Shown: positions 1-52,299 of the stretch, piece after piece | How positions within the stretch are numbered: the stretch's first letter is position 1 | Layout: each line of letters opens with the position of its first letter | Source: a virus | Virus record (IMG/VR): IMGVR_UViG_3300044707_000458 | Coordinates: 1-53,637 of that record | Strand: one strand, 5' to 3' | Length of the DNA stretch: 53,637 bases | Position numbers and translations under genes: made by a program | Notes under the pieces: generated by a model | Told to the model about the DNA's origin: nothing | What the model saw: only the letters and a program-made list of their open reading frames with translations | Database searches by the model: none

Positions 1-3000
1 AAGGCCTAATTCCTGTTTTTGTAACCAAGTCCGAGCCTTTGTACCCAGCGATGCTGGATGACATCGAGGACGTAGGATTCGAGGGGCAGATCAAGCCTCT
101 CATCACAAATAACAACTGGAGTTCGATGCGTAGCAAGGGTCGCCCAGTTACGATGAAGAACCCGATCCAGAAGCTCCGACTCACCGCACAGACTGGCAAG
201 ATGCCAAGCGAGCATAACGCAGTCTTTACGACCTATGCCCAGATCTCCTCGGTAGCCAAAAAGGATGTTATCCCTGCCCTTAATGCAATCGCAGACAGGG
301 CGATCTTCATCTTGGATGAGAGCCACAATGCGGCGGGAACAGACAGCTCTATCGGCGAATTCTTTAGAAGCGTAATTCCAAAATCACGAGGAGCGGTGTT
401 CTCTTCGGCAACGGCTATCAAAAGCCCCGCCAACATCGCCACCTACTTCCCCAAGACCAGCATCCCAATGGCTGTGCCTACCGCAAGTGAGTTCGAGAGA
501 CTCGCCAAGCGGTTCGGCAATCCATTTATGCAGATGACCAGCAGTATGCTGTCTCGAGCTGGGCAGATGTTCCGACTCCAGAGTGGGTTTACTTGGAAGG
601 GTCAGAAGATCCCATTCATCCCATCCCCGATCAAGGCCAAGCAAGAGGTCATTGATGCCCATAACGCCGCCAATGAAATTCTTGGTGAAATGAGGCAGAT
701 CGAGATCGGTGAAAAGATGAAGAAGCTGACCCAACAGCTCGTACAGGATGCACAGGAAGCCTACGAGGGAACGGAAGCAAAAGCCCTTATCTATCCCCTT
801 TCTGGTCAGTTCCACAATGTCGCCGCCAATATGGTTCTTGGAGCGAAAATCAAGGACACAGCAGACTTGGCCGAGGCTGAAATCAAAGCTGGTCGCAAGG
901 TGTTCATCTCAATGGATACGACTGGCGAGGCCTTCCTTCGGGATGCAAAGGAGATTATGGAGGGCGGAACCCTTCAAAACTACGACAAGGTCTCGAAGGT
1001 CACCTTTAAGGATTTCATGGAGCGGTACGCAAGGAAGCTCAACACAAACAAGGTCAAGATCGAGCCAGCGGATGAAAAGAGCAACGCCCCTGCCCTTGAG
1101 TTCACCATTGATTGGAATAAGACAAGCGGGAAATCAAATATCCCCAACTGGGTAAGCCAAAAGTCCATCGAGCTTCACGACTCCCTAATGGAGACTGGCT
1201 TCAAGGATCTAGCCCTAATCATCAAGGACAATGCCGAGACCCTCAATAAGCTCCCGATCAGTCCATTTGATGCCTTGCGTGCTGAACTGCAAAGACGGCA
1301 GATCCTAAGTGCCGAGATATCGGGTCGGGACATCGCAGTCACCCCTTCTGGTGCTTTCTCACAGAGATCCGTCACCGACCAAGACAAGCAAAACTCCCTA
1401 ATCGCTTTCCGTAACAATGACCAGACGAAAGTTCTAATCGTCAGCCGAACTGGCTCGACTGGGCTGTCGGCACACGACGATCCCCGCAACAAGAGTTCAG
1501 CTCCACGAACCCATATAGTGATGCAACCAGCCCCCGACATCGTCGACACAATCCAAGTTTTGGGCAGAACAAACCGCAACAATCAGCAAAGTGCGCCCAA
1601 ACTTGTCTACATCTACAGCGAAGACATCCCTGCCGAAGTACGGATTATGGCGATGACCCAGAAGAAGATGCGCCGTCTTGGTGCGTCCACGACTGGTAAA
1701 GACGCAACCGCCGCTGGCGAAAACCTTGGGCTGGATATGCTCAATACCTACGGAGACAACGCCGTAGCTCTTGTGCTGGCAAACGAGCCAGAACTACGCA
1801 CGGCCTATAACACCAGAGCTGGAACTAACTTCCCCGAGAAGTTTGAGGATATCCGAAAGATCCTAACTTCTGGTGAGCCAGGGGATGGAATGCGGAGGAT
1901 GATCCACAAGGCGTTGATCTTGGATATCGAGGATCAGAGGCATTTCTTCGAGGAGATCACAGCCGAATACGTTGCGATGGTTGATTTCGCCAAGCAAAAC
2001 GGAACCTACGAGCTGGAATCACAGGACAAGGACTACAAGGCCGAGAAGCTGTCTGACGAAAAGGCTTGGGATGCGTATGGAGTTGCTACTGAGCCACAAA
2101 AGGGAGCGGAATCAAGCAACTCAAAGGCAAAAGAAATTGATTTCCTCAAGACAGCAACACCTCCAGAAGACACCTCGTTTGTTTGGTCTCTTGGCGGATA
2201 TACAATCAAGAAAACTTCTGGATTAGGTCGTGACGCTGGGCCAGCGGGCAAAGAAGGACAACCAATATTTGAACTTACCTCAACCTCGAAAAAGGAAGAC
2301 GGACTTTCGATCAGCTCGCAATCTTGGGCAACAATAACAGAGACAGCCATTAAATGGATTGAAGAGGGTAAAATAGAGACTGGAGAAAACGAGGACTCCA
2401 AGACTGGTGAAGACGCATTTTCCAAACCAGCCCGCATCGCCAAATACCGATTCAATAACCCTACCCCTCCCCCAACCTCGGCAGAGGTAATCCCGACCCT
2501 CGAACAGGCCAAACAACAGGCCGAAACAGCCGTATCAGACTTCTTAAAAGCCAGCGACTCTGTCCTAAAGGACAAGCTGGCCCGTATTTCAAGCAACCCA
2601 CGAATGGAGCAACTGGCGAAGGTAAGGGCTTTGGAGAAGTCTCGGAAGCAGTACGCCCAGACCAAGTACAATGTGGAACGAGCCTTAGACCTCGTTGGTA
2701 AGGGAGCTTGGTTCGGCAAGGATACAAAACAGATCCCCGCCTATGTCGTAGGTGTTGAGCTGAACAACCGCTTCCCTCACGCCGAAAGTCGGCAGTACCT
2801 AGTCATCCAAACCTCTGGGTTCGAGAACAAGATCCGAATCCCGCTACAGGCATCGGAACTCGCTCACGTCAATCCTTTCAAGATCTCTTTAGATAAGTCA
2901 CCTATTGGCGAAAACGAAGCCCCTACTCGTGACCCCAGTATTCCAATCGGAAGCCTCCCCATTGGCATTTACCGCAATGCAGACGGATCTGGGTTGGTAA

Positions 3001-6000
3001 TTGCCTCTAGCATGCAACGTGGTGCTAGCTGGGTAGACAACCTTCCCCCCGAACAACTGCGAGAGGTTAATGCGGTTGCATACGAGCTTGCAGTCCAAAT
3101 GCACGAAAACGGAGTGGATGAATCCACAATCGAGAAACAAGTATTTGATGAAGCCTTAAACAAAGTCATTTTCTATGGGGACACATGGGAAAAGTACGTC
3201 GAAGAAAAGATGCCAGAAAGCCGCAAGGGTGACGGATTCGGAAAGACCTACGATAGATCAAGGCAGAATGCGACCCAGAGAGACCAGTTTGTGGTCGAGG
3301 GCAATCTCCTCACAGGGGCGAATTTCGTTTCCTCTATGTTCGGGGCTAATGTCCCAGCGGCGGTCACCACCTTCACAACCAAGGATGGTGGCAAGACAAC
3401 TGGCGTAGTGATGCCCGCTGGGGTCAACTCCGACAACCTAGTAAATCTCAAAGCAGAAGTAGCCAAAGGCCAAGGATCCCTGCTTGGCCCAGTCGGCAAG
3501 GTAATGGATAACATTATCGACGAGGAAGGCAGACCTCGGGCTGTTGTGTTCAGCGACGGGTCAATGATCTCTGGGCAAAGCCTCTACATCCCAGACAAAG
3601 CGTTCCTCGATGACAAGAACGAGGGTTACAGGAAAGAGGCATTAGACAACAGCAACGCCATCGCAACGATGATCGTGGCTAAAATCAATCAAGGACATGA
3701 TGCTTGGATGTATCGAGGACCAAAGAATGGGTTCTCGCTACGCTCAAGGGGTCTACGCCGTGAAGCTGGTCAAGGCCGAGCCAAAGAGCAAATCGTTGAA
3801 GGATTCTTGACCGACGATAACGCAAAAGACTTCGCACCAGAAGGAGTCATCGGAAGAAACATTCGCATCAAGGCGATGAAAGCCTCGGATGACGGATGGC
3901 TCGAAGCTGGAAACCTGGGTGAGGACGAGATCTACGAGAACCTATACGACTACGCAATCGCCCTACAGGCACAGATTAACCAGCGTCACGGCCAAAACAC
4001 CAAGGGCGAGCTGATCGAGAACGTGCCTAACTTCATCCTGTCTGCCGTAGATAACCGCATTAAGCAGATGCAAGAAGAGGCCAAGAGCCGTGAGACAATC
4101 TCTAAAGATGCTCCGATAAGCGGGACATTTAACGAAGAGGGCGATGTCGAACAAGAAGAAGCCTCCGTGGGTGATTACATGGCTCAAAAAGAAGCCCCAG
4201 AATCCAACAAGGAACTCTACGACAAGCTCGAAAAGGTACTGGCCTCGCTGGCCGATTCCGACAGGAAGATCTTTATGATGTATGTGAGCGGGGCGAGCTA
4301 TCAGCAGATCTCCGAGACCCCCGAAGCCTACAAATCTAGGAACGTGGGCAACCTCGATGGCGAAGTCGCTCCAGACAGATCTTGGACGTTTAAGCATATC
4401 CAGAGCCTCAAAGGCCAGCTCGCCAAGTACGCAAATTTCCTAGGGATCGAAGCTCCCACAGCAAAAGAAGAGCCTACCGAAGCCAGCCCGATGGAAGGCT
4501 TTAAGGCTATTGAAGAAAGCAAGGGTCAGATGACTCTGTTCTCTCGTGGTTTGGTGGACTACTTGGACAAGAACGCTGGAAATAGCGTCCTGTTTAGGGA
4601 TCTCCTCACAGCCGTTGCGAACGAGCCAGACGCACTACCTAGCCAGAGAGCCTTGGCTAAACTACTGACCACCCCAAACACCAAGCAAAGCATGATGACC
4701 GCTGGGCTTTATGTGCCAGCCGAAATCAATCCAGATCCGAGCTTTGTAAGGTCGTACTACAAGCCAGCTAAAGAAGGCAACGGAATGGTCGTGTTGAGTC
4801 TTTATGGGATCAAGAACAGCGGTGAACCGATTGAAACAACGATTCACGAGTATAAGCACGTTCTGACTCACAACCTTTTAGTCAAAGAAGGAATCGGTAC
4901 GGCCACAGGCAAGAAGGAGCTGGATAGACTTGTCGAGTACGCAAACCGCCCAGATATCGAGATGGATGCAGAAGGCAATCCCCTGCCCTTGGCAAGCGGA
5001 AGCAAGGGCGGATACAAACCACTCAAAGCTCTGATTAAGGCCTATTTGGCGGCCGTCAACGCATCCAAAGATACCGCTGGCAACCCTGTGGCAGACGCTG
5101 TTTTCGGGACTGGATTGGCATCTACCTACGATGTGACCCTGCACATGGCCCCATACGAATGGGCTATTGGACAGGATGGGATCCACATGAAAGCCGAGAT
5201 TACCAGCGAGAACACCTTCCCTCTCCTTAAGTACCTCAAAGATCAAGGGCTGGAAGGAACTCGCCCGATGGGTCGGAACTCTGGAATGAGCCTTGTCGCC
5301 TCGAAGGGATCCCCAGATTTCGTGTTCTTGAACCAGACGGATGAAGAGGCATTGGGCGGAATGGAAACAAGCGGAGTGCAAAACACGACCCTTGTTATAA
5401 CCCCAAGTGGTATTGAGAAACTCCGCCAGCAAGACCTAGAACCCCTCTTCTACGCATCTTACAAGGTTCGTGCGACAGCCCCGATGTTCCGAACAAAGGT
5501 TTCAGACATCCAGACTGACCCGCAGAAGGTTCGCTCGATCTACTACGGCCTTGGGAACATTCACGAATTCGTTACCGAAATGTACAGCGACAATCGTTTC
5601 CAAACCGAGATGGCATCGATACCAGGACAATCTGGAATTGAGATCAACGGAAACCTCAAAGAGTATATGCAAGCCTTGGCCGCCGAGCTTCCGCAAGAAG
5701 CTAGGAACGCAATGATGCAGAACTCGGCAATCAAGCCGACCATTCTGACCCAAGGACAATCGGCCGCCTTGGAACTATCCAGCCAGCCATTCGACTTTAT
5801 GAAGATGGTTGAGAATCTCCGCCAAGGGAACGTCGAGAAAAAGCTCGAACAGGCCACCCTGTTTTCTCGTGGAATCAAGATCCAAGACAAGGACAGGAAC
5901 AACATTGATGTCCTAAAGAGCAAGCTCCTCCAGCTCCACAAAAAGAAGCACGGATCCTACCAGAAGGAGGACGATGGTTATTATCGGCCAATTCCTCCCC

Positions 6001-9000
6001 AGCAGTTGTCCTCCCAAGAAGAGACTCTTTACACAATGCTGATGGACAAGGCTCGTGCAGAAAAGTGGCCTGGAATCGCCTTCCAATCAGACCTTATGGA
6101 TGTTGAGACAACCACAAGGCCAGAGAATCTTGTCCTAGAACAGCAGTCGGCAGTCCCAGAAGTGGAAGCTCCAAAAATGGAGCAACTCTCCTTGTTCTCA
6201 CGAGGGCTAATGGAGGTAACGTCGGCGTTAAGCGAAGAGTTCCCAATAGCAAAGGCAGTAGAGGCTCTCCCTAGAGGCGGTCTTTATGGGCAACAAAGAG
6301 AAAATGCTTTCACAGATTTCATGCAAAACGCAATGCTTCCAGAGTCGTTTGAGGCCAAGTACAAGGGCAAAGGATTGAGTCCAGTTAAACTCCGAGCCGA
6401 GTACCTCAAGCAAAATCCAGAAGCACTCAGAAGGTTGTTGTATAAAGAAAGCGGTAAAAACCCTAGCAGTAAGCTCTTCTCAAGAGGCCTACCAGCAGAC
6501 CCAGACCCGATGAGCAACGGAGATCAGCAAGCCCCGCTGAATGACCTACTGGCTTCATTCTTGGGTGCGTCTGGAAACATCATTACCGACGAAGAAATTG
6601 ACGCCACCTACCAAAGGGCATCCGAAGAGAACGCCCCTTTTGAAGTCGGCGCACCCTATGTAGGCCAAGATGTCCGTAGTGCTGGCCCATTCGCAAACGA
6701 TCAGTTCCGTGATGTGCAAAGGGTAGCCAGAGAACTACGCAGACCCATTGATACAGTTGAGACTGACGCATCTGTTTTGGCGGCCGCCAGAGCCTTGGTC
6801 GCTACTCACAAAGCACAACTTTACGAGGATCTCCTTGAAGGAACTCTCGAGACATCAGCAACGAATCAAGCGGCGGTCTACCTAGCCCTTGCCGAGGACG
6901 CAAAGAACGCCAAGACACCAGAGGAACTCCGTGAAATTGCGATTCTCACAATGGCTAACGATATCCAGAGGACAAATCTGGCTCGTGCAATGCGGATCGG
7001 GCGTGACAGCCAGATGACCCCAGAAGAGCGGAATCGGTCATTCTTCAATGCGGAACTCTACAGAAGAAGCCCAGATTCTAATGAGCTGTACAGGAACGCC
7101 ATCTCAAGAACACTCAAAACGAGGTCGATTGCCTCAAATGAAGAGCAGATCCGCCTCCTCCAAGCCGAGCTAGACCTAGCAAGAAGCCAAGCTGGGGAAG
7201 CCTTTACTGCTAACGAACAATGGCAGAAGTGGGGAGCGTATATGGAGGGACGGATTAAAGAGTTCCAAGACGCCAATCAGCTCTGGGCAGATCAGTTGGA
7301 TAAATACCAAGTCCTAGAACAGGAATCCGCAAGGAAGATCGAGGCCTTACAGGCAGAGCTGGCAAAGGCAAATACCAGCCTCGAGCAGATGGACTGGGAG
7401 ACAGCCCAGCTCAAGATCCGTGAGAGCAAATCAGCTCAAGACGTACTGGACACAATCAAGATGTCCAATGATGACGCCGAGGCGATCCGACTCGTGATGG
7501 CTGGTATGGTTCCGATGGCGGCCGCTAAACAAGCTGGGATCAAGCCAGCCAGAGTGATGCAGTTGATGAAATCTCTTGAGACAAACACAAAGCAGAGGTT
7601 TGACCAAGTAGCTGGAGAGCTTGCGACCCAAGGGATCACACGAAGCCAGCTAAAAGCGAAGTTGACCGCATTTGCCAACGGAGCATCCCTGCGGTCTAGG
7701 GGTATCGAAGCCAACCAAGAAGAGGCTCCCCTCACCAAGGAAGAGATTTTGGCAGAGATCGTGTCAGCAATGGGATTCGACTATGCAGGGCAGTCCGATA
7801 CTTCTGGTAAGGCCGATTGGCACAATGTTGACGGCAAAAGCTCTCTGTTTGACTGGAGAAAGCCCAGCAACGTCGGAATTGCAATGCAGATGGTTCGTAG
7901 GTCGCAAGGCAAACAGGCCAGCGTTGGGGACGCATTATTTGAAGCTTACGTTGCCCTGCTTGTATCCAGCACCTCGACCCAGCTCGCCAACGTATCAAAG
8001 ACCCCTTTCACACTTGCTAACCCATTTTACAGAATGGTCGAGGCGGGGATGTCCTACCTTATGGGCAAGACTGGGCTAAATGTAAGGCTTCCAGACGGAA
8101 CGATTGGCAATCCATACGCCAGCGTGGCTGATGTAGTCAACGGAGCTACCGAGGAAGCGAAACTCGGATTTAAGGCGATGATGCCCTCAATTATCAACGG
8201 ACTGCGGTACGCTCGCTTGGCATTCAACACAGAGAAGCCTTTCTACAATATCGACCATACCGACGCGACCCTTCTGGATGAAGGCGATCAGAAGTTCTAT
8301 GAGAACGATCCCAAGGTACCTGGCAAATTAGGAAAAAAGCTCCGCTTGCCCCTGCGAGCATTGTTGGCCGCCGACGAGTTTGCCAAATCATTCACAGCCC
8401 AAACCCTTGTAGGATCTATCGCATTCAGAATGGCAAAAGCAAAGGGGCTAAACGGACAAGAACGGCTCGAATATGTGAGAAACCAAGTCAGCGAATTTGG
8501 TTCTGACTCTTGGAAGATTGCGGTTGAGCGGTCTTCTCGTGAAACCCTTAACGAGGATGTAGCCGACAACAAAGATGAGCCATTTACATTTAAGAGACTC
8601 GGTAAGGCCGCCCCTCGAGCATTGAACAAGTTTAGCAAAGGCATCTCTGATCTTACAGAAAGCATCGAGAGCTGGGGCTATGACCCTAATAATGGAGCAA
8701 GGGCTGTCACCGCTCCTGTGGCCTTTACTGGGGCAATGGGTCTCCAAGTTCTTCGAGGCCTTACCCTGTTCGCCAGAATCTCCTACAATGTGCTGGCTCG
8801 TGGACTTGCCTTCACCCCTATCGGCCTTGCCGACTCCGCAATCGGAGCAATGAATTCCATTAAGAAAAACAGAGAAGGCCAGAGGTTTATGGATCTGAGC
8901 AACTACGAGAACTCCGTAGCTGGGCTTACCGAGGGAGCGATTGGAACAGCAATTCTGATGGCTTTGTTCAGAAGCATGGAAGGCGACAAGGATGACGATA

Positions 9001-9968
9001 AGAAGTTCCTGTTGATTACTGGCCCAGCCAAGGACGCTGATACTGCTGGAAGGACAACTAGGTACGGAAACAGATCCTATATGATCCGAGTTGGCGACAA
9101 GGAGTTCGATATCAGCAGAATCGAGCCTCTTACATCGACCATGGCATTCGGAGTTGCCCTTTCAACCGCAGTAAAAGACGCAGTTAATCGTGGCGGTGGA
9201 ATTGATGTATCTAAAAACCTCTTCCTAGATTTTGGAAGAATCCTTTCCCAGAAGACATTCGGAGGACAGCTACGGACAGGAAAGACCTTAATGAAGGGCG
9301 ATTTGGCAGATCCATTGATTGATTTTGCGTCTGTGTTCACAGCCCCTCCACTAGCTAGAGGACTAGCAGAAGCGTCGAAGGACTATGTCTCCAGAACTAA
9401 ATCAGAAGAGGCCACCATATTTAATAAGGACAGAATGCTGTCGAAGTTCGCCCCTGCCATCGGAGCATACCCTTCAGCTACTGGCTACAGGACTCCATAC
9501 GCTTACGACTATGAAGGTAAGAAAGTTGTTAAGCCATTCACAGAGGTCTTGCCCAACAGCACGGCTGGCAAGATTGCGAAGTTCGCACTTAGGAATCTCT
9601 CCCCTGTCGCCGTCTACAAAAAGAAGCCAGCCTCCAAGCTCAATAGGTTTGTTGAGTCTTACAACAGGCAACAGATCTCAACGGATGGGAAGACTTGGGT
9701 TCTTGATGCGCCCAGAGCCGAGGTCACGGATCCCTACAGCAAAAAGAAGGTTCGGTTGACCCTGCGGGAGCAAGAGACACTCAACTCCATCGTCCAACCC
9801 CAGCTCCAAGCCTTGTTTGAGGTCAACATAACAGAAGCCGATATCGCCAACCCAACCGACAAAAAGAAGCAAAGAATCCAGAATCTAGCTTCCCAGCTAC
9901 GCAATAAATACGAGGAACAGATTATCAGACAGCGATATGCAACGGGCGACGCAAAGCAGACAAAGTAG
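1..9968 (+). CDS. Giant polyvalent protein, 5'-truncated (strawberry-notch/DarB-type helicase + metallopeptidase + LPD38-like)
   Basis: The frame is open to the left edge, so the true start lies outside. Residues are numbered from the TTG codon at 39. Residues 1-610 are an SF2 helicase of the strawberry-notch type: Walker B DESH at 93-96 and motif VI QVLGRTNR at 506-513. About 1401-1425 resembles sigma-70 region 4 (DSDRKIFMMYVSGASYQQI). A zinc metallopeptidase signature HEYKH is at 1603-1607, with a second HEFVTE block at 1842-1847 in a tyrosine/glycine-rich context typical of peptidases in phage polyvalent proteins. A coiled coil spans about 2367-2452. From about 2640 the sequence resembles the LPD38 domain found at the end of such proteins, with hydrophobic helices near 2900-2970. 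Six L(F/R)SRG motifs separate these parts. In phage P1, DarB-type proteins are packaged and protect incoming DNA; a virion-injected anti-host role here is inference. The portal gene follows 34 nt downstream. Confidence 0.85.
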   Translation, partial: GLIPVFVTKSEPLYPAMLDDIEDVGFEGQIKPLITNNNWSSMRSKGRPVTMKNPIQKLRLTAQTGKMPSEHNAVFTTYAQISSVAKKDVIPALNAIADRAIFILDESHNAAGTDSSIGEFFRSVIPKSRGAVFSSATAIKSPANIATYFPKTSIPMAVPTASEFERLAKRFGNPFMQMTSSMLSRAGQMFRLQSGFTWKGQKIPFIPSPIKAKQEVIDAHNAANEILGEMRQIEIGEKMKKLTQQLVQDAQEAYEGTEAKALIYPLSGQFHNVAANMVLGAKIKDTADLAEAEIKAGRKVFISMDTTGEAFLRDAKEIMEGGTLQNYDKVSKVTFKDFMERYARKLNTNKVKIEPADEKSNAPALEFTIDWNKTSGKSNIPNWVSQKSIELHDSLMETGFKDLALIIKDNAETLNKLPISPFDALRAELQRRQILSAEISGRDIAVTPSGAFSQRSVTDQDKQNSLIAFRNNDQTKVLIVSRTGSTGLSAHDDPRNKSSAPRTHIVMQPAPDIVDTIQVLGRTNRNNQQSAPKLVYIYSEDIPAEVRIMAMTQKKMRRLGASTTGKDATAAGENLGLDMLNTYGDNAVALVLANEPELRTAYNTRAGTNFPEKFEDIRKILTSGEPGDGMRRMIHKALILDIEDQRHFFEEITAEYVAMVDFAKQNGTYELESQDKDYKAEKLSDEKAWDAYGVATEPQKGAESSNSKAKEIDFLKTATPPEDTSFVWSLGGYTIKKTSGLGRDAGPAGKEGQPIFELTSTSKKEDGLSISSQSWATITETAIKWIEEGKIETGENEDSKTGEDAFSKPARIAKYRFNNPTPPPTSAEVIPTLEQAKQQAETAVSDFLKASDSVLKDKLARISSNPRMEQLAKVRALEKSRKQYAQTKYNVERALDLVGKGAWFGKDTKQIPAYVVGVELNNRFPHAESRQYLVIQTSGFENKIRIPLQASELAHVNPFKISLDKSPIGENEAPTRDPSIPIGSLPIGIYRNADGSGLVIASSMQRGASWVDNLPPEQLREVNAVAYELAVQMHENGVDESTIEKQVFDEALNKVIFYGDTWEKYVEEKMPESRKGDGFGKTYDRSRQNATQRDQFVVEGNLLTGANFVSSMFGANVPAAVTTFTTKDGGKTTGVVMPAGVNSDNLVNLKAEVAKGQGSLLGPVGKVMDNIIDEEGRPRAVVFSDGSMISGQSLYIPDKAFLDDKNEGYRKEALDNSNAIATMIVAKINQGHDAWMYRGPKNGFSLRSRGLRREAGQGRAKEQIVEGFLTDDNAKDFAPEGVIGRNIRIKAMKASDDGWLEAGNLGEDEIYENLYDYAIALQAQINQRHGQNTKGELIENVPNFILSAVDNRIKQMQEEAKSRETISKDAPISGTFNEEGDVEQEEASVGDYMAQKEAPESNKELYDKLEKVLASLADSDRKIFMMYVSGASYQQISETPEAYKSRNVGNLDGEVAPDRSWTFKHIQSLKGQLAKYANFLGIEAPTAKEEPTEASPMEGFKAIEESKGQMTLFSRGLVDYLDKNAGNSVLFRDLLTAVANEPDALPSQRALAKLLTTPNTKQSMMTAGLYVPAEINPDPSFVRSYYKPAKEGNGMVVLSLYGIKNSGEPIETTIHEYKHVLTHNLLVKEGIGTATGKKELDRLVEYANRPDIEMDAEGNPLPLASGSKGGYKPLKALIKAYLAAVNASKDTAGNPVADAVFGTGLASTYDVTLHMAPYEWAIGQDGIHMKAEITSENTFPLLKYLKDQGLEGTRPMGRNSGMSLVASKGSPDFVFLNQTDEEALGGMETSGVQNTTLVITPSGIEKLRQQDLEPLFYASYKVRATAPMFRTKVSDIQTDPQKVRSIYYGLGNIHEFVTEMYSDNRFQTEMASIPGQSGIEINGNLKEYMQALAAELPQEARNAMMQNSAIKPTILTQGQSAALELSSQPFDFMKMVENLRQGNVEKKLEQATLFSRGIKIQDKDRNNIDVLKSKLLQLHKKKHGSYQKEDDGYYRPIPPQQLSSQEETLYTMLMDKARAEKWPGIAFQSDLMDVETTTRPENLVLEQQSAVPEVEAPKMEQLSLFSRGLMEVTSALSEEFPIAKAVEALPRGGLYGQQRENAFTDFMQNAMLPESFEAKYKGKGLSPVKLRAEYLKQNPEALRRLLYKESGKNPSSKLFSRGLPADPDPMSNGDQQAPLNDLLASFLGASGNIITDEEIDATYQRASEENAPFEVGAPYVGQDVRSAGPFANDQFRDVQRVARELRRPIDTVETDASVLAAARALVATHKAQLYEDLLEGTLETSATNQAAVYLALAEDAKNAKTPEELREIAILTMANDIQRTNLARAMRIGRDSQMTPEERNRSFFNAELYRRSPDSNELYRNAISRTLKTRSIASNEEQIRLLQAELDLARSQAGEAFTANEQWQKWGAYMEGRIKEFQDANQLWADQLDKYQVLEQESARKIEALQAELAKANTSLEQMDWETAQLKIRESKSAQDVLDTIKMSNDDAEAIRLVMAGMVPMAAAKQAGIKPARVMQLMKSLETNTKQRFDQVAGELATQGITRSQLKAKLTAFANGASLRSRGIEANQEEAPLTKEEILAEIVSAMGFDYAGQSDTSGKADWHNVDGKSSLFDWRKPSNVGIAMQMVRRSQGKQASVGDALFEAYVALLVSSTSTQLANVSKTPFTLANPFYRMVEAGMSYLMGKTGLNVRLPDGTIGNPYASVADVVNGATEEAKLGFKAMMPSIINGLRYARLAFNTEKPFYNIDHTDATLLDEGDQKFYENDPKVPGKLGKKLRLPLRALLAADEFAKSFTAQTLVGSIAFRMAKAKGLNGQERLEYVRNQVSEFGSDSWKIAVERSSRETLNEDVADNKDEPFTFKRLGKAAPRALNKFSKGISDLTESIESWGYDPNNGARAVTAPVAFTGAMGLQVLRGLTLFARISYNVLARGLAFTPIGLADSAIGAMNSIKKNREGQRFMDLSNYENSVAGLTEGAIGTAILMALFRSMEGDKDDDKKFLLITGPAKDADTAGRTTRYGNRSYMIRVGDKEFDISRIEPLTSTMAFGVALSTAVKDAVNRGGGIDVSKNLFLDFGRILSQKTFGGQLRTGKTLMKGDLADPLIDFASVFTAPPLARGLAEASKDYVSRTKSEEATIFNKDRMLSKFAPAIGAYPSATGYRTPYAYDYEGKKVVKPFTEVLPNSTAGKIAKFALRNLSPVAVYKKKPASKLNRFVESYNRQQISTDGKTWVLDAPRAEVTDPYSKKKVRLTLREQETLNSIVQPQLQALFEVNITEADIANPTDKKKQRIQNLASQLRNKYEEQIIRQRYATGDAKQTK
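3738..7703 (+). repeat. Six copies of an L(F/R)SRG(L/I) peptide motif in the giant protein
   Basis: The motif is encoded at 3738-3752 (LRSRG), 4536-4550 (LFSRG), 5859-5873 (LFSRG), 6192-6206 (LFSRG), 6474-6488 (LFSRG) and 7689-7703 (LRSRG). The next residue is always Leu or Ile. Three copies share a longer form with Gln three residues before the Leu (QMTLFSRG, QATLFSRG, QLSLFSRG). Codons differ between copies (TCT/TCA, CGT/CGA/AGA/AGG, GGT/GGA/GGG/GGC), so the peptide rather than the DNA is conserved. The motifs divide the protein into pieces of roughly 1237, 266, 441, 111, 94, 405 and 755 residues that follow the visible domain borders. Confidence 0.85.
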
Positions 9969-10002
9969 TCGCACACCTAGCCATTGATGGTTGAAATCGA
10001 AT

Positions 10003-12228
10003 ATGGCTGAGAATCAAGTAGATAACCTCGTAAAGAAGGCCGAAGAACTCGAGAAGGCTCTTGATTCTGCTCGTAGTGGACCGAACGCACGAGCTTTGGG
10101 TGGCGGAAGCCCGACTGCGGTTGCCTTCCCAACAGCCTATAAGCTGACCGAGGAACAGGAAAAGGAGCTGGTTCGCCACGCATCCGAACGCCTCCGCAAG
10201 CTCGAGGTTGAGATGGGACGAAGCATCGTCCGTAGTACCGCTTACAACACAAACCCAACTTCCTTGATGGCCTTTGAGACTTTCCTAGGTCGCCGTCAGA
10301 TCTACGAGTGGGTCTATGAGAACAATGTCTCGTGGCGTCCAGCGGTCATGGGCGGGATCTTTGAACAGAGCAATCTTATCGTGCCTGTCACCCGCCGTAT
10401 CGTTCGGCAAATGATCGCAAAGGCACAGAAATACTTCCTTGGAACAGATCCTTGGTTCTCTGCCCTGCCCGAAGGAGCGGCCGACAGGGACATCGCAGAC
10501 AAGGTTGAGCGGTATGCTCGCTATAAGTTCAACAGGCTTGGGGTTAAGGATGCGATGGCAATGGCTTTGCAACTGGCCTTTGTCCGTGGTGAATGTGTCG
10601 TCAAGACAACCCACGTTAAGAAAGAGCAAGTCTATCAGCGGAATGCCAAGGTTCTTGTGGATCTAAACGGCCAGCCGATCCTCGCAACGGACGGAGATTT
10701 CATTACCGACAAGGACAGCTTTGTCCCAGCCCAGAACGAAATCGGTGAGCCTATTATGCTTTTAAGGCGGGATATGGCGACGATTCAGCCCCCTGTTCCT
10801 GTTTTCATCGAGCAAACGATCAGCCGAAAGGCAATTATCTCCGAAGGGCCAACTGCCGAGGCCGTCTACTACCAAGACTTTATTTGCCCTCTAAACGCAA
10901 CATCGGTGGATGATGCCGACTTTGTGGCTCATCTTTATGATGCCCCTATTATGGAGCTGGCCGACCTCTACAATAAGAAAGGGTCGAAAAGCGAGGAGAC
11001 CCCCGAAGAGGAGATGCTCCGAATCCAAGCGGCGATTGACCAGATCCGTATGTCTGCAACCGAGTCTGGGATCCCCAAGACTGGGGCTAAACAGGCCAGA
11101 ACAGAGCGTGGCGAGGCTTACGAGCCAAACAATACCTTCAATAACCCGACGATGGAGATTGCAGAATGCTACTTGCGGTATGATGCGAACGGAGACGGAA
11201 TCACCGAAGAAATCATGCTTCTTTTGGATGTTCGTAATCAGCGGGCAATCTTCTACGAGTATGTGGCTAATGTGACCTCCGATGGCCGTAGACCTTTCAC
11301 AGTAGTCCGAGTGAACCCTGTGGACGGACGCTGGTACGGAATGGGCGGAGTGGAGCAGTTCAAGACCTCACAAGACTTCATGGATCTGACTATTAACCGA
11401 CTCAATTTCAGCCAAAGCTCAAGCGGGCGAGTAACCTTCTGGCGTCCAGATGCGACCTTTGAAGGGTCAGCGAATCCCAATCTGATCCTCAATTCTGGAG
11501 GCACTTATACGCTTCGCCCAGGTTTTGCGGCCGCCGATGCCTTGACCTATGTGGCTCTCCCAGAGTCCAAGGAAAAGGATCTCAATTTCATGCTCCAATA
11601 CTTTACCCAGCTCGTACAACTCGAGTCGGGCGTGATGACTGGTGGAGATCAAGAGTTCTCTGGTTTGCCATCGAGCAAACTGGCTACTGGCATCCGAAGC
11701 ATCGACCAAGCGGGCAATGAAATGTTCTCGCAGTACCTAATGTCGTTAGAGCCAGCCCTGTCCCAAGTAGTCAATCGGCTGGTGTTGATCCTGTTGGACA
11801 ACATGAACAAAAAGGAAATGTTCAACTACCTTGAAGGCGATGCACTCCAACTTGTGACGATCACCCCAGAAGAAATTGCTGATATTAACATCAATATCCG
11901 CCTCCTACTGACGCGCTATCACGGAGAGCAACAGCTCCAGAGCAATGCTCAAGCGGCGGGTCTTGTAACCCAGTTCTATGGATTGCCCCCAGAAGTTCAG
12001 CAGAAGGTCGCCCTGTTTTACAACCAGAGCCTCAAAGCCCTTGGGATCGTGGATGCAGAGTCGATCATTCAGCCCTTTGCCCCGCCTCCTACACAGAATG
12101 GGATGACTCCAGACGGACGAGTATTCGGCCAAGCTGGATCCCCTGGCTCACCTCCGCCTAGCGTTGGTGGAACGAAAAGCGTCCCTGTTGACGCTGGCCT
12201 AGCTGGCGGTAATCCGACACCCGCATGA
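10003..12228 (+). CDS. Portal protein
   Basis: This 741-residue protein has the size and layout of podovirus-type portals, the ring at the capsid vertex through which DNA enters and leaves. Visible features are an N-terminal helical region, a core with FETFLGRRQIYEWVY followed by a basic helical stretch, an acidic beta-rich wing, a stem/crown segment with many Asn, Gln and aromatic residues (FMLQYFTQLVQLESGV; SSKLATGIRSIDQAG), and a Pro/Gly-rich tail. An in-frame TTG at 9991 would add four residues; I prefer the ATG at 10003 (MAENQ). It lies between the giant polyprotein and a small gene coupled to it by an ATGA overlap, and the scaffold and capsid genes follow after the antisense cassette. 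The family assignment is by pattern; no catalytic motif is expected. Confidence 0.85.
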   Translation: MAENQVDNLVKKAEELEKALDSARSGPNARALGGGSPTAVAFPTAYKLTEEQEKELVRHASERLRKLEVEMGRSIVRSTAYNTNPTSLMAFETFLGRRQIYEWVYENNVSWRPAVMGGIFEQSNLIVPVTRRIVRQMIAKAQKYFLGTDPWFSALPEGAADRDIADKVERYARYKFNRLGVKDAMAMALQLAFVRGECVVKTTHVKKEQVYQRNAKVLVDLNGQPILATDGDFITDKDSFVPAQNEIGEPIMLLRRDMATIQPPVPVFIEQTISRKAIISEGPTAEAVYYQDFICPLNATSVDDADFVAHLYDAPIMELADLYNKKGSKSEETPEEEMLRIQAAIDQIRMSATESGIPKTGAKQARTERGEAYEPNNTFNNPTMEIAECYLRYDANGDGITEEIMLLLDVRNQRAIFYEYVANVTSDGRRPFTVVRVNPVDGRWYGMGGVEQFKTSQDFMDLTINRLNFSQSSSGRVTFWRPDATFEGSANPNLILNSGGTYTLRPGFAAADALTYVALPESKEKDLNFMLQYFTQLVQLESGVMTGGDQEFSGLPSSKLATGIRSIDQAGNEMFSQYLMSLEPALSQVVNRLVLILLDNMNKKEMFNYLEGDALQLVTITPEEIADININIRLLLTRYHGEQQLQSNAQAAGLVTQFYGLPPEVQQKVALFYNQSLKALGIVDAESIIQPFAPPPTQNGMTPDGRVFGQAGSPGSPPPSVGGTKSVPVDAGLAGGNPTPA

Positions 12229-27147: not shown

Positions 27148-27671
27148 TCGTAGATTACGAGTCCTCCGAACCCATCTTGGATATTGTAATCACGCCGTTT
27201 GAACCAGCCGTCACCTAGCTCATAGGCACAGACAAGCCGACCAAGCGGTGCTGTGGCGTATAATAGACCTTGGGGGCTGAACAACTGAAAGTGGTATTGG
27301 CTGTCGGCGTTGAATGGGGCAGATATGACCACATACCCGCAACTCAAACGACGAAGGTTTTCAAGAAACGAGGGAACATCTTTGACGTGCTCGATTACAT
27401 CAAAGGCAGAAACCACCCCAAACTGACCAACTACCTCTTCCAGAGGCAGGGATATATCCACATTTAGATCGGGCGCTGGATCCTGTGTTACTGGGATGAA
27501 GCCGTGATTGGAGATCCTCCCTTTTGAATAGCCAAGGCCCGCCCCGACATCCAGCCAGAGCCTATTCTTGATAGGCATCGCAGAAAGGATCGAGGACGCT
27601 AACCCCTGTGTGAACCATTGGGTGTCTTCCCTGCCCTCCACTCCGCCTATGTTTGCTAGGTCAGTTTTCAT
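27144..27671 (-). CDS. Class I SAM-dependent methyltransferase
   Basis: The 175-residue protein shows the SAM-binding motif I (LWLDVGAGLGYSKG), a motif II acidic position (NVDISLPLEEV) and a post-motif SAFDVIEHVKDV typical of methyltransferase families that act on small molecules or sugars. It lies directly after a family-4-type glycosyltransferase and overlaps it by ATGA, so the two may build or alter a glycan. Confidence 0.75.
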   Translation of the reverse strand: MKTDLANIGGVEGREDTQWFTQGLASSILSAMPIKNRLWLDVGAGLGYSKGRISNHGFIPVTQDPAPDLNVDISLPLEEVVGQFGVVSAFDVIEHVKDVPSFLENLRRLSCGYVVISAPFNADSQYHFQLFSPQGLLYATAPLGRLVCAYELGDGWFKRRDYNIQDGFGGLVIYE

Positions 27672-28723
27672 ATATATTTAGAGAATCTTCCAAAGGCACA
27701 TTTCGGGCATCCAATACCCTTCTTTAGGTTGTCGTATGCGTTATCAGCCATCCGCCTTGATTTATTGGGGCTAAAGGCAAGCTGGGAAAGTCTGTGAGAG
27801 GCCTCGTCGTTACTTGAGACCAGAAAGCCAGTCTCTTGGTCTTTAATGAACTCTGGGACTCCGCCTTGATTCGCCCCGACCACCACAGCTCCGCTGGCGA
27901 CGGCCTCAAACAAGACACGTGGGGCGTTTTCCTTTACTGGATACCACATCAAAAGGGCGTGGGCGTCTCGGAAGTAGTTAGCCAGAGTTGCGGGGCTGTA
28001 GATATGAGGGACTAGCTCGGCATTGATCTTGCCGTGGTATGGATGCCCTTCTTTGCCTACATCGCCCAATAGATCCTCGCCTTCCCTGCCCCATCCGACG
28101 ACATTCAGCCTTGTTGTGACCCCAAGAGGAGCTGTCACCTTGTAGAACAGATCCCACATATCACGAGGGTACTTGAAGGGTTCATCGTCCCTGCCAATTC
28201 TTAATACATTGAGAGTATCTAGGGACTTGTTGGAAAACCTTAGCTTTCCCCACTTGCTATCAATGTTGAAGAAGGGAAAAACGTGCTGGAGATCCGCCGA
28301 AAGCCCTACTTCGTTTAGGCGTTTAGTTAGCTCTCCAAACTGGAAAGCAGACTGGCAAAGGATCTTTAGGTTCTTGGTCTTGGCTATGCCGACCAGCTCC
28401 TTGTCCCGAAGCACATTCATACAAGGCCAGTAAACCACTTGCCGAGGGGTCTCCTCGTTCTTCATCAAATAATCAAACATCCCATCCTCGCACCAGCACC
28501 AGACATTTTGGTCGTTGAACATACCAGGACTATAGGCTTCCGTAGCTACCCCAAGAGAATCCAGATACCGCCTCCTTGGTTCGGACGCAGAAAGAACATC
28601 TGTTCCCTGTGGAACAACGCAAGTGACCTCGACTCCGTTGTCTCGGAATAGCTCGATGGCGTGGCCTGTCTCGGGTCCCGCCCCACCGCATTGGTGAAGA
28701 TACCCCCAGATATAGATCTTCAT
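27668..28723 (-). CDS. Glycosyltransferase, GT4-like
   Basis: The start is ATG 28723, in ATGA overlap with the upstream stop; the frame extends to 28756 but inside that gene. The 351-residue protein has a GT-B layout: an N-terminal domain (MKIYIWGYLHQCGGAG) and a C-terminal nucleotide-sugar domain with LNVLRIGRDD, then ENAPRVLFEAVASG (the E-x7-E region) and GGVPEFI. Such retaining enzymes move a sugar from a nucleotide donor to an acceptor, perhaps phage DNA, a virion protein or a host surface glycan. Confidence 0.75.
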   Translation of the reverse strand: MKIYIWGYLHQCGGAGPETGHAIELFRDNGVEVTCVVPQGTDVLSASEPRRRYLDSLGVATEAYSPGMFNDQNVWCWCEDGMFDYLMKNEETPRQVVYWPCMNVLRDKELVGIAKTKNLKILCQSAFQFGELTKRLNEVGLSADLQHVFPFFNIDSKWGKLRFSNKSLDTLNVLRIGRDDEPFKYPRDMWDLFYKVTAPLGVTTRLNVVGWGREGEDLLGDVGKEGHPYHGKINAELVPHIYSPATLANYFRDAHALLMWYPVKENAPRVLFEAVASGAVVVGANQGGVPEFIKDQETGFLVSSNDEASHRLSQLAFSPNKSRRMADNAYDNLKKGIGCPKCAFGRFSKYI

Positions 28724-29031
28724 AGCCGAGGCAGTTTCCTTTTTAGCTGAAACCACGCAAAGAGGCCACGAACGATAGTCCTCTCTAGGTGATCTATGGC
28801 CGTCTCCCCATTGTTGTCGGGCTGGGGTTCGTTGAGGTGGATCTGTTGCTGGGCTGTTACTGCGTGTTTGATTGCCCTGCTAATATGATAGTCGTAGGTC
28901 GGCTTGTCTTTATAGAGCCATTCTCCAAAGGATGACTTGGCGGATCCGTTGCTCATAATTCTCCAAGTTATCTCGGCGGCCGCACTAGCCATCTCCGCAA
29001 TAGATGGAACGTGTTTCTGGTCTTCGGTCAT
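28720..29031 (-). CDS. Hypothetical early protein
   Basis: The start is ATG 29031, overlapping the preceding stop (ATGA). The 103-residue helical protein has a conserved-looking centre (SSFGEWLYKDKPTYDYHISRAIKHA) and an amphipathic C-terminus (GLFAWFQLKRKLPRL). The centre recalls helical phage proteins linked to nucleotide metabolism, but no catalytic motif is visible, so no function is given. Confidence 0.55.
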   Translation of the reverse strand: MTEDQKHVPSIAEMASAAAEITWRIMSNGSAKSSFGEWLYKDKPTYDYHISRAIKHAVTAQQQIHLNEPQPDNNGETAIDHLERTIVRGLFAWFQLKRKLPRL

Positions 29032-51282: not shown

Positions 51283-52299
51283 GTGCCAATACAACTTCCA
51301 TATACAGGCGTCACGACCACCGAGACGATCCCAGCTCCGTACACAAATGGAAATGAGGCGATCGATCTTACGCTTAAAGAAGACAAGGCAAACAAGGGGG
51401 TAGCCAACGGCTATGCCCCGCTGGACGCAAACGCAAAGGTACCAGTAGCCAATCTTCCAGACCAAGCCTCACTAGACGCAGAGGTTGACGGAAAAATCAC
51501 AACGCACAACTCTGTAACCACATCAGTCCACGGAATTGCGAATACGGCCAATCTGGTTTTGACAGACGATGCAAGGCTTTCAGACACAAGAGATCCCAAG
51601 GCACACACTCACACCAAGTCTAACATAACAGACTTTGCACATACCCATGCCATCTCTGATGTAACGAACCTCCAATCGAAACTTGATACAAAACAAGAGT
51701 ATTACTATACGCCAGTAACCTATTCTTCCGACTACACAATACAGTCCACACTGTCCGATACGGGTTCAATCGAAAGGCATTTCCACTTTACTATTTCTGG
51801 CACACCAACTTATAACCCAGCGACAGATTCGGGAATCTACATAAACTTTCCCACTACTGGCAAATTGGGTGATATAATTACTATTACAAACTCATTCCTC
51901 AAGACCGATGGTTTCGCAAATAATGTTGCGTTGCTTTTGAGGGAAAGAAGTGGGACAACAAACAACAACTTTGGCACTTTGGCGGTGGGTACAACTCAGA
52001 GCTATGTAAGAAAATCATCAAATTCGGGTTTTGGCAACTGGACTTACCTAGCCCCAACAGTGCACACTCACGCTATTGCCGATGTAACAGGGCTACAAAC
52101 AGCCTTAAACGGCAAACAAGCTTCTGGAAGCTACGCCCCCGCAACTGGGATTGCCCCTTCCGCCATTACTGGGACAGCAGTTGTTACGAACGATTCTAGG
52201 CTTTCAGACCCAAGAACGCCGACAGCCCACACGCACACCATGTCGGATGTTACTAGCCTTCAAGCAACCTTAACCGCATTTGCTATCGCTTTAGGATAA
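51283..52299 (+). CDS. Tail-fibre-like protein with HTH repeats
   Basis: The start is GTG 51283. The 338-residue protein has an N-terminal anchor-like part with YAPLDANAKVPVANLPDQA, a segment common at fibre N-termini, and several repeats of the form HTH-(A/T)-(I/M)-SDVT-LQ (AHTHTKSNITD, AHTHAISDVTNLQ, VHTHAIADVTGLQ, AHTHTMSDVTSLQ). His-Thr-His repeats bind iron along the trimer axis in tail fibres and needles. The middle has a Tyr/Thr-rich beta domain. It likely forms part of the receptor-binding fibre. Confidence 0.75.
   Translation: MPIQLPYTGVTTTETIPAPYTNGNEAIDLTLKEDKANKGVANGYAPLDANAKVPVANLPDQASLDAEVDGKITTHNSVTTSVHGIANTANLVLTDDARLSDTRDPKAHTHTKSNITDFAHTHAISDVTNLQSKLDTKQEYYYTPVTYSSDYTIQSTLSDTGSIERHFHFTISGTPTYNPATDSGIYINFPTTGKLGDIITITNSFLKTDGFANNVALLLRERSGTTNNNFGTLAVGTTQSYVRKSSNSGFGNWTYLAPTVHTHAIADVTGLQTALNGKQASGSYAPATGIAPSAITGTAVVTNDSRLSDPRTPTAHTHTMSDVTSLQATLTAFAIALG

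Follow-up and report, generated by a model that had tools for sequence, protein, structure and literature searches.

Known systems and the giant protein

The closest described systems are the phage-type polyvalent proteins, which according to Iyer et al. 2017 (PMC5512222) combine a ddrB-ParB domain, a strawberry-notch helicase and a zincin-like module, neighbour the portal gene and show domain mosaicism, and for which processing by zincin-like domains was proposed in 2017 on grounds other than ours. The DNA analyzed here is the IMG/VR virus record IMGVR_UViG_3300044707_000458 (positions 1 to 53,637; this whole stretch of 53,637 nucleotides is called the window), and our subject is a short peptide, L[FR]SRG[LI], which is repeated within a giant protein of this type encoded beside the portal gene. 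The giant protein shares the ddrB-ParB domain, the helicase, the mosaicism and the neighbourhood named above and has a candidate zincin-like module, and its relatives carry LPD1, LPD5, RadC, Kinase-PolyVal and sigma domains. It differs from the descriptions in the available part of PMC5512222 in the repeated junction peptide, in the lineage-specific form of that peptide and in the exchange of units precisely at the peptide, all of which were seen here, while LPD38 was undetected.

Three other systems share some of these properties. The N4 virion RNA polymerase is a giant ejected podovirus protein (about 3,500 amino acids, aa) that contains an HExxH domain and ends in a helical region, but it has an RNA polymerase core, is packaged as one chain, and has no repeated junction peptide reported in the available part of its description (PMC12633501). 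Substrates of prohead proteases, such as the ejected head protein gp245 of SPN3US (PMC10052503) and P1 DarA, which is cut by the prohead protease Pro (PMC12810830), are phage head proteins with short lineage-typical motifs and several cuts per protein; their cuts mostly remove N-terminal propeptides, whereas the peptide studied here lies at internal borders and carries a basic residue. It also lacks the P1 glutamate of T4 gp21/phiKZ-type substrates, and no prohead protease was recognized in the window genes searched. In the contact-dependent toxin CdiA, the pretoxin VENN motif is a short conserved peptide that borders exchangeable effector regions, allows foreign units to be fused and is a processing site (PMC9424206). 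CdiA has one copy before a C-terminal toxin, together with a PT-VENN domain, while the giant proteins have six to eight copies of a lineage-variable peptide. No PT-VENN or DPxG pretoxin or C-terminal toxin Pfam domain (CdiA, Rhs) was found in the proteins scanned, and the likeness to the CdiA/Rhs polymorphic toxins is one of way of working only. No description of a repeated lineage-specific junction peptide was found in the open-access literature, and literature searches with the motif letters returned nothing relevant.

The repeated peptide

The first-pass annotation held that the peptide occurs six times in the giant protein and that, as its codons vary, the peptide itself is selected. All six copies were found in one frame of the giant ORF (open reading frame) exactly where they had been placed (Table 1), while 20,000 residue shuffles of the window protein gave an expectation of 0.001 and a maximum of 1, and the motif was found in none of the window's other genes. 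The ORF is cut at its 5' side, so that the window holds the C-terminal 3,321 residues only; on the longer contigs of the relatives L012, L016 and L017 the full-length protein has about 5,445 aa, and relatives show a seventh copy, LSSRGL (RLSSRGLPAPDP), before the helicase in the part outside the window. In an unbiased gapped 4-mer search of the full-length protein, L.SRG was the top internal repeat (7 copies, p about 1e-10.5, against 1e-7.7 for the best of 25 shuffles).

The codon spellings are unlike among the six copies (CTACGCTCAAGGGGTCTA, CTGTTCTCTCGTGGTTTG, CTGTTTTCTCGTGGAATC, TTGTTCTCACGAGGGCTA, CTCTTCTCAAGAGGCCTA and CTGCGGTCTAGGGGTATC). Among near relatives, amino-acid-variable columns made up 4/36 in the motif and 99/360 in the flanks (p 0.044), and synonymous variation in the motif columns was not below that of the flanks. 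Judged from these alignments, the constraint acts at the level of the peptide, and it is the peptide itself that is selected, as the annotation had it; selection of the peptide rather than of the DNA is also indicated by two genomes of another lineage, L084 and L085, which spell it with different codons on the two sides of the comparison.

Lineage-specific forms of the peptide

Further lineages were reached with the portal protein as an anchor, and each of them was found to use its own spelling in nearly all its copies, with six to eight copies per protein. The form is L[FRSY][SA]RG[LI] in lineage A (clade A, to which the window belongs), Lx[AS]RxP[DE] in lineages B and B2, L[GFL]AK in lineage C, [LIM]xAQR[IL] in lineage D, L[FM][TA]RP[LF] in lineage E (two copies seen), LxSRRA in lineage F, and L[LFY]SR[RG][ASV] in lineage G. 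The core that is most constant over the lineages is L-x-[SAT]-[RK or Q], to which a lineage-specific tail is added. At the position of copy 6, for instance, LLARAPE is found in B, MLAKMPD in B2, LLAKGMD in C, IMAQRI in D and LMARPF in E, and between A and D the corresponding copies have changed jointly from SRG[LI] in A to AQR[IL] in D. The loss of the motif in relatives, which the annotation had named as a result that would count against its claim, was thus not observed, since the relatives keep their copies in a spelling of their own. The joint change of form within a lineage suggests that all copies are read by one partner, and to this extent the annotation's proposal of a recognition signal is supported; the cleavage it also proposed would be the most likely use of such a signal, as discussed below. 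A table that counts every form in every protein is close to diagonal.

Independently of these hand-written forms, the unbiased search ranked the motif above all other internal repeats in A, B2, D and F, with p from 1e-8.4 to 1e-10.5 (25 shuffles each, of which the best reached 1e-6.9 to 1e-7.7). In B, C and G the score of the motif is not remarkable, and in nine other DarB-, ddrB- or LPD38-type giants the motif was not the top repeat of the same search.

Exchange of cassettes at the peptide

Comparison of the motif with the domain borders of related giant proteins, a check which the annotation had suggested, showed that cassettes are exchanged with their junctions at the peptide. Between B and B2, a 682-aa stretch with a GHKL ATPase and a HEITH peptidase is absent in B2, where the two copies that flank it survive at a distance of 17 residues, and a gain of 858 aa lies between two copies; the breakpoints lie 0-11 residues from the copies. 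In lineage F, L084 and L085 share 97% DNA identity upstream of a junction and diverge 0-2 codons before the peptide, which reads LRSRRA (CTTAGGTCCCGACGCGCC) and LLSRRA (CTCTTATCAAGAAGGGCA), and the cassette that follows is RadC in L084 and a HEWGH zincin in the near-identical L085 (about aa 590-820 of the L085 giant ORF), while in L086 a Kinase-PolyVal domain occupies the same slot. Within clade A, relatives differ in the short cassettes between copies 4 and 5, and the DNA junctions of these fall inside TTCACGAGG, which encodes SRG.

The giant proteins of lineages F and G also contain a module of sigma-70 region 2 and region 4 whose profile matches FliA and RpoS structures. In F it comes after the exchanged slot; it is flanked by a copy on either side in L083 and L086, and L084 and L085 are without the copy before it. 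An AlphaFold model of the lineage F sigma segment was partial (predicted local distance difference test score, pLDDT, 54), with the copy before the sigma fold in a low-confidence stretch. Overall, copies lie 8-9 residues after LPD1 and 13-15 residues after the sigma domain, and none of 16 falls inside a Pfam domain. The claim that the copies stand at domain borders therefore holds for the borders of exchangeable modules, but not for every border, as the first copy in the window comes about 575 residues after the helicase. On these sequence comparisons, we read the peptide as a junction signal between exchangeable effector cassettes.

Some individual modules are worth recording. In L051 (lineage B), about aa 2066-2766 of the giant ORF hold a GHKL ATPase domain which resembles phage rIIA proteins and is joined to a HEITH peptidase-like region. 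In L083, the giant polyvalent protein encoded beside the portal gene includes a complete module (6127-6780) that is sigma-70-like, has both region 2 and region 4 and resembles FliA and RpoS. The two ends of contig 3300032266_000694 (L013, L009) share ERAKRNWGPNVQLRSVN and then differ, so that either the cassette varies within the population or the contig is wrongly assembled; the right-hand junction comes from the opposite end of the contig and may be a false join.

What may read the peptide

The reading which we favour, with moderate confidence, is that the signal between the cassettes is most likely a processing site. One lineage-specific partner would read all copies in a phage, and this partner would most likely be a protease which cuts the giant protein into separate units, in the head or after injection; the released units would include a sigma factor in some lineages. 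That the enzyme is simply the HEXXH domain of the giant protein itself seems doubtful. Cleavage behind the small residue would suit the core better than trypsin-like cleavage behind the arginine, because a proline stands next to the basic residue in E and one residue further on in B. Processing is favoured since signals of this sort, where they separate independent enzymes of a single chain, most commonly serve it, and since CdiA offers a precedent in its VENN motif, which borders the exchangeable regions and is also required for cutting (PMC9424206).

Several observations weigh against this interpretation. The proline right after or near the basic residue excludes simple trypsin-like cutting in some lineages. 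No peptidase gene was recognized in the selection of window genes searched with Pfam and PHROGs, and the sister phage B2 (a circular 64.9-kb contig with 8 copies) has no credible HEXXH protein in any frame. The N4 virion RNA polymerase, which bears an HExxH motif, is packaged unprocessed (PMC5512222). As for the junctions, smaller swaps of 80-180 aa, which lie behind the helicase and within the N-terminal third, do not take place at the peptide, and in clade A this third is devoid of copies in the clade A form. Finally, the lineage patterns were written after the sequences had been inspected, so that the table of their counts illustrates the lineage specificity and does not prove it.

A gene that precedes the capsid gene was considered as a candidate for a scaffold or a prohead protease and set aside: its 326-aa product is without a database match and has a scaffold-like composition.

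A special case of processing, whose probability overlaps with that of the favoured reading and which by itself we regard as unlikely, is that every copy is cut by the HEYKH-type metallopeptidase which the protein itself carries, as the annotation had suggested. Clades A and D have a zincin-like module between copies 2 and 3, with 96-99% identity within A, most lineages contain HEXXH domains, and self-processing of polyvalent proteins by metallopeptidases was proposed earlier (PMC5512222). B2, however, keeps its 8 copies with no credible HEXXH protein in its whole circular contig, the HEWGH unit is itself an exchangeable cassette in lineage F, and the unprocessed N4 protein speaks against it too. 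F and G retain another HEWFH domain, and clades A and D retain their HEXXH. The suggestion is thus a poor general explanation and may hold for the window's own clade.

The peptide could also be a non-proteolytic docking or packaging tag, the motif of each cassette being bound by a head, portal or ejection component for loading and threading out, an alternative to which we likewise give a low probability. It would agree with a short motif in linkers, with a lineage-specific form as would be seen with co-evolving binding partners, with the fact that the giant gene and the portal gene are neighbours in all lineages reached, and with the capsid localisation signal known from P1 DarB (PMC9024508); yet one tag per protein should suffice, and the placement at cassette borders is better explained by the separation of units.

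That the copies are structural linker caps or old remnants of segment duplication, with no recognizing partner, is quite improbable. Copies with known neighbours do sit in linkers, and their flanks are more disorder-prone than average in 3 of the 5 proteins tested, but the residues are kept while synonymous codons differ, the form changes jointly to AQR or L-x-A-K in other lineages, and new cassettes bring their own copy. It is very unlikely that the peptide merely results from a site of DNA recombination which shuffles the cassettes: the recent clade A swaps have their junctions inside TTCACGAGG, but copies within one protein differ in codons, so that a peptide and not one DNA word is repeated, and L084 and L085 keep the peptide though the DNA differs on the two sides. 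Most improbable is that the copies are binding sites for the bacterial beta sliding clamp (QL[SD]LF) that bring injected units to the replisome, for although copy 4 is preceded by and overlaps an exact QLSLF (window 6183-6197), copies 2 and 3 show QMTLF (4527-4541) and QATLF (5850-5864), and Q-x-x-L-F or QLxLxL is also seen in lineages B, D, E, F and G (e.g., QLPLDF before the L083 sigma module), the window's six copies comprise one exact match, two near ones and three without, the Q is present in only 3 of 7 clade A copies, and the constant part L-x-[SAT]-[RK] extends downstream of the clamp motif and varies by lineage.

Returning to processing, we tentatively propose a more specific form, in which a dedicated, co-evolving protease would read a lineage-specific cleavage code at up to eight junctions, and so let the phages swap the cassettes (sigma factor, kinase, RadC, GHKL, peptidase) of one injected chain. 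This bears on the way in which ejected giant proteins, several thousand residues long, work inside the cell. If the junction code were readable, every product boundary could be predicted from sequence, the separately acting units would be revealed, and new effector cassettes could be found by looking between the copies; the joint change of the copies in each lineage offers a direct handle for finding the partner.

Generality of the motif

No relative was found among cultured phages searched with the peptidase region, the C-terminal region and the portal, and bacterial genomes searched with the portal gave no match. An LFSR element follows LPD1 in polyvalent proteins of Shewanella Y11, Pseudoalteromonas Y3 and a Psychrobacter locus. 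Among five plasmid-borne LPD1 proteins examined, this element is lacking in four and represented by no more than a distant MYSR in one, and over the other phage polyvalent proteins as a whole [FY]SR shows no clear enrichment (15 versus 9.2 expected). Polyvalent proteins in general do not share the junction motif, and for these two reasons no universal motif is claimed.

Domains and neighbours of the giant protein

The features of the window are listed in Table 1. AAA_34 and ddrB-ParB were found upstream of the helicase in L017, so that ddrB-ParB, AAA_34 and Helicase_C_4 stand in one chain, and the giants of lineages F and G carry LPD1, LPD5, RadC, Kinase-PolyVal and sigma-70 domains; the giant protein is a phage-type polyvalent protein built from exchangeable effector cassettes. 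The giant gene adjoins the portal gene in every lineage reached, and from this neighbourhood and the known family members, packaging in the head and ejection may be deduced, the protein probably being sent into the host.

The domain labels of the annotation fared unequally. The superfamily 2 helicase was confirmed (E 1e-24), and the HEYKH motif is visible in a module without a Pfam match, in which HEYKH and EFVTEMYS are both conserved in relatives. The sigma region 4 match is weak and stands alone in the window, and the profile of A-D fails to align with the sigma profile of F and G. LPD38 (PF18857) had no match in the window or L017, and hhalign of the C-terminal region against the LPD38 region of BS-TP4 gave a probability of 0.2%. 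An AlphaFold model of window aa 1490-2180 reached a pLDDT of 34 and was discarded. About 575 residues between the helicase and copy 1 are without a domain assignment.

Table 1. Features of the giant ORF and its neighbour in the window (all positions in window coordinates)
Feature	Position	Strand	Remarks
Giant polyvalent protein ORF	3..9968	+	3,321 aa seen; 5' end outside window
Strawberry-notch-type SF2 helicase C-terminal domain (Helicase_C_4)	1311..2015	+	Pfam E 1.1e-24
Junction peptide copy 1, LRSRGL	3738..3755	+	aa 1246
Weak sigma-70 region-4-like helix-turn-helix	4221..4316	+	Between copies 1 and 2; E 0.0015, 18.6 bits against a cut-off of 25.7
Junction peptide copy 2, LFSRGL	4536..4553	+	aa 1512; D-lineage counterpart by context INAQRI
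HEYKH zincin-like active-site motif, metallopeptidase-like module	4845..4859	+	From sequence
EFVTEMYS, candidate second zinc-ligand helix of HEYKH module	5565..5588	+	From sequence
Junction peptide copy 3, LFSRGI	5859..5876	+	aa 1953; LFARGI in some relatives, LFAQRI in D
Junction peptide copy 4, LFSRGL	6192..6209	+	aa 2064; left edge of short variable cassette
Junction peptide copy 5, LFSRGL	6474..6491	+	aa 2158; right edge of variable cassette
Junction peptide copy 6, LRSRGI	7689..7706	+	aa 2563; precedes conserved C-terminal region
SU10-type portal protein	9991..12228	+	PF23899 E 3e-26; directly downstream of giant ORF

A hypervariable stretch follows the helicase at window 2163-2423, where near relatives hold unrelated segments of 80-140 aa, some of them GYF-like, and the swaps in this stretch do not use the junction peptide. 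Elsewhere in the window, a glycosyltransferase group 1 gene (27668-28756) lies among phage genes, and a tail protein with phage tail repeats (PTR) is encoded at 51283-52299.

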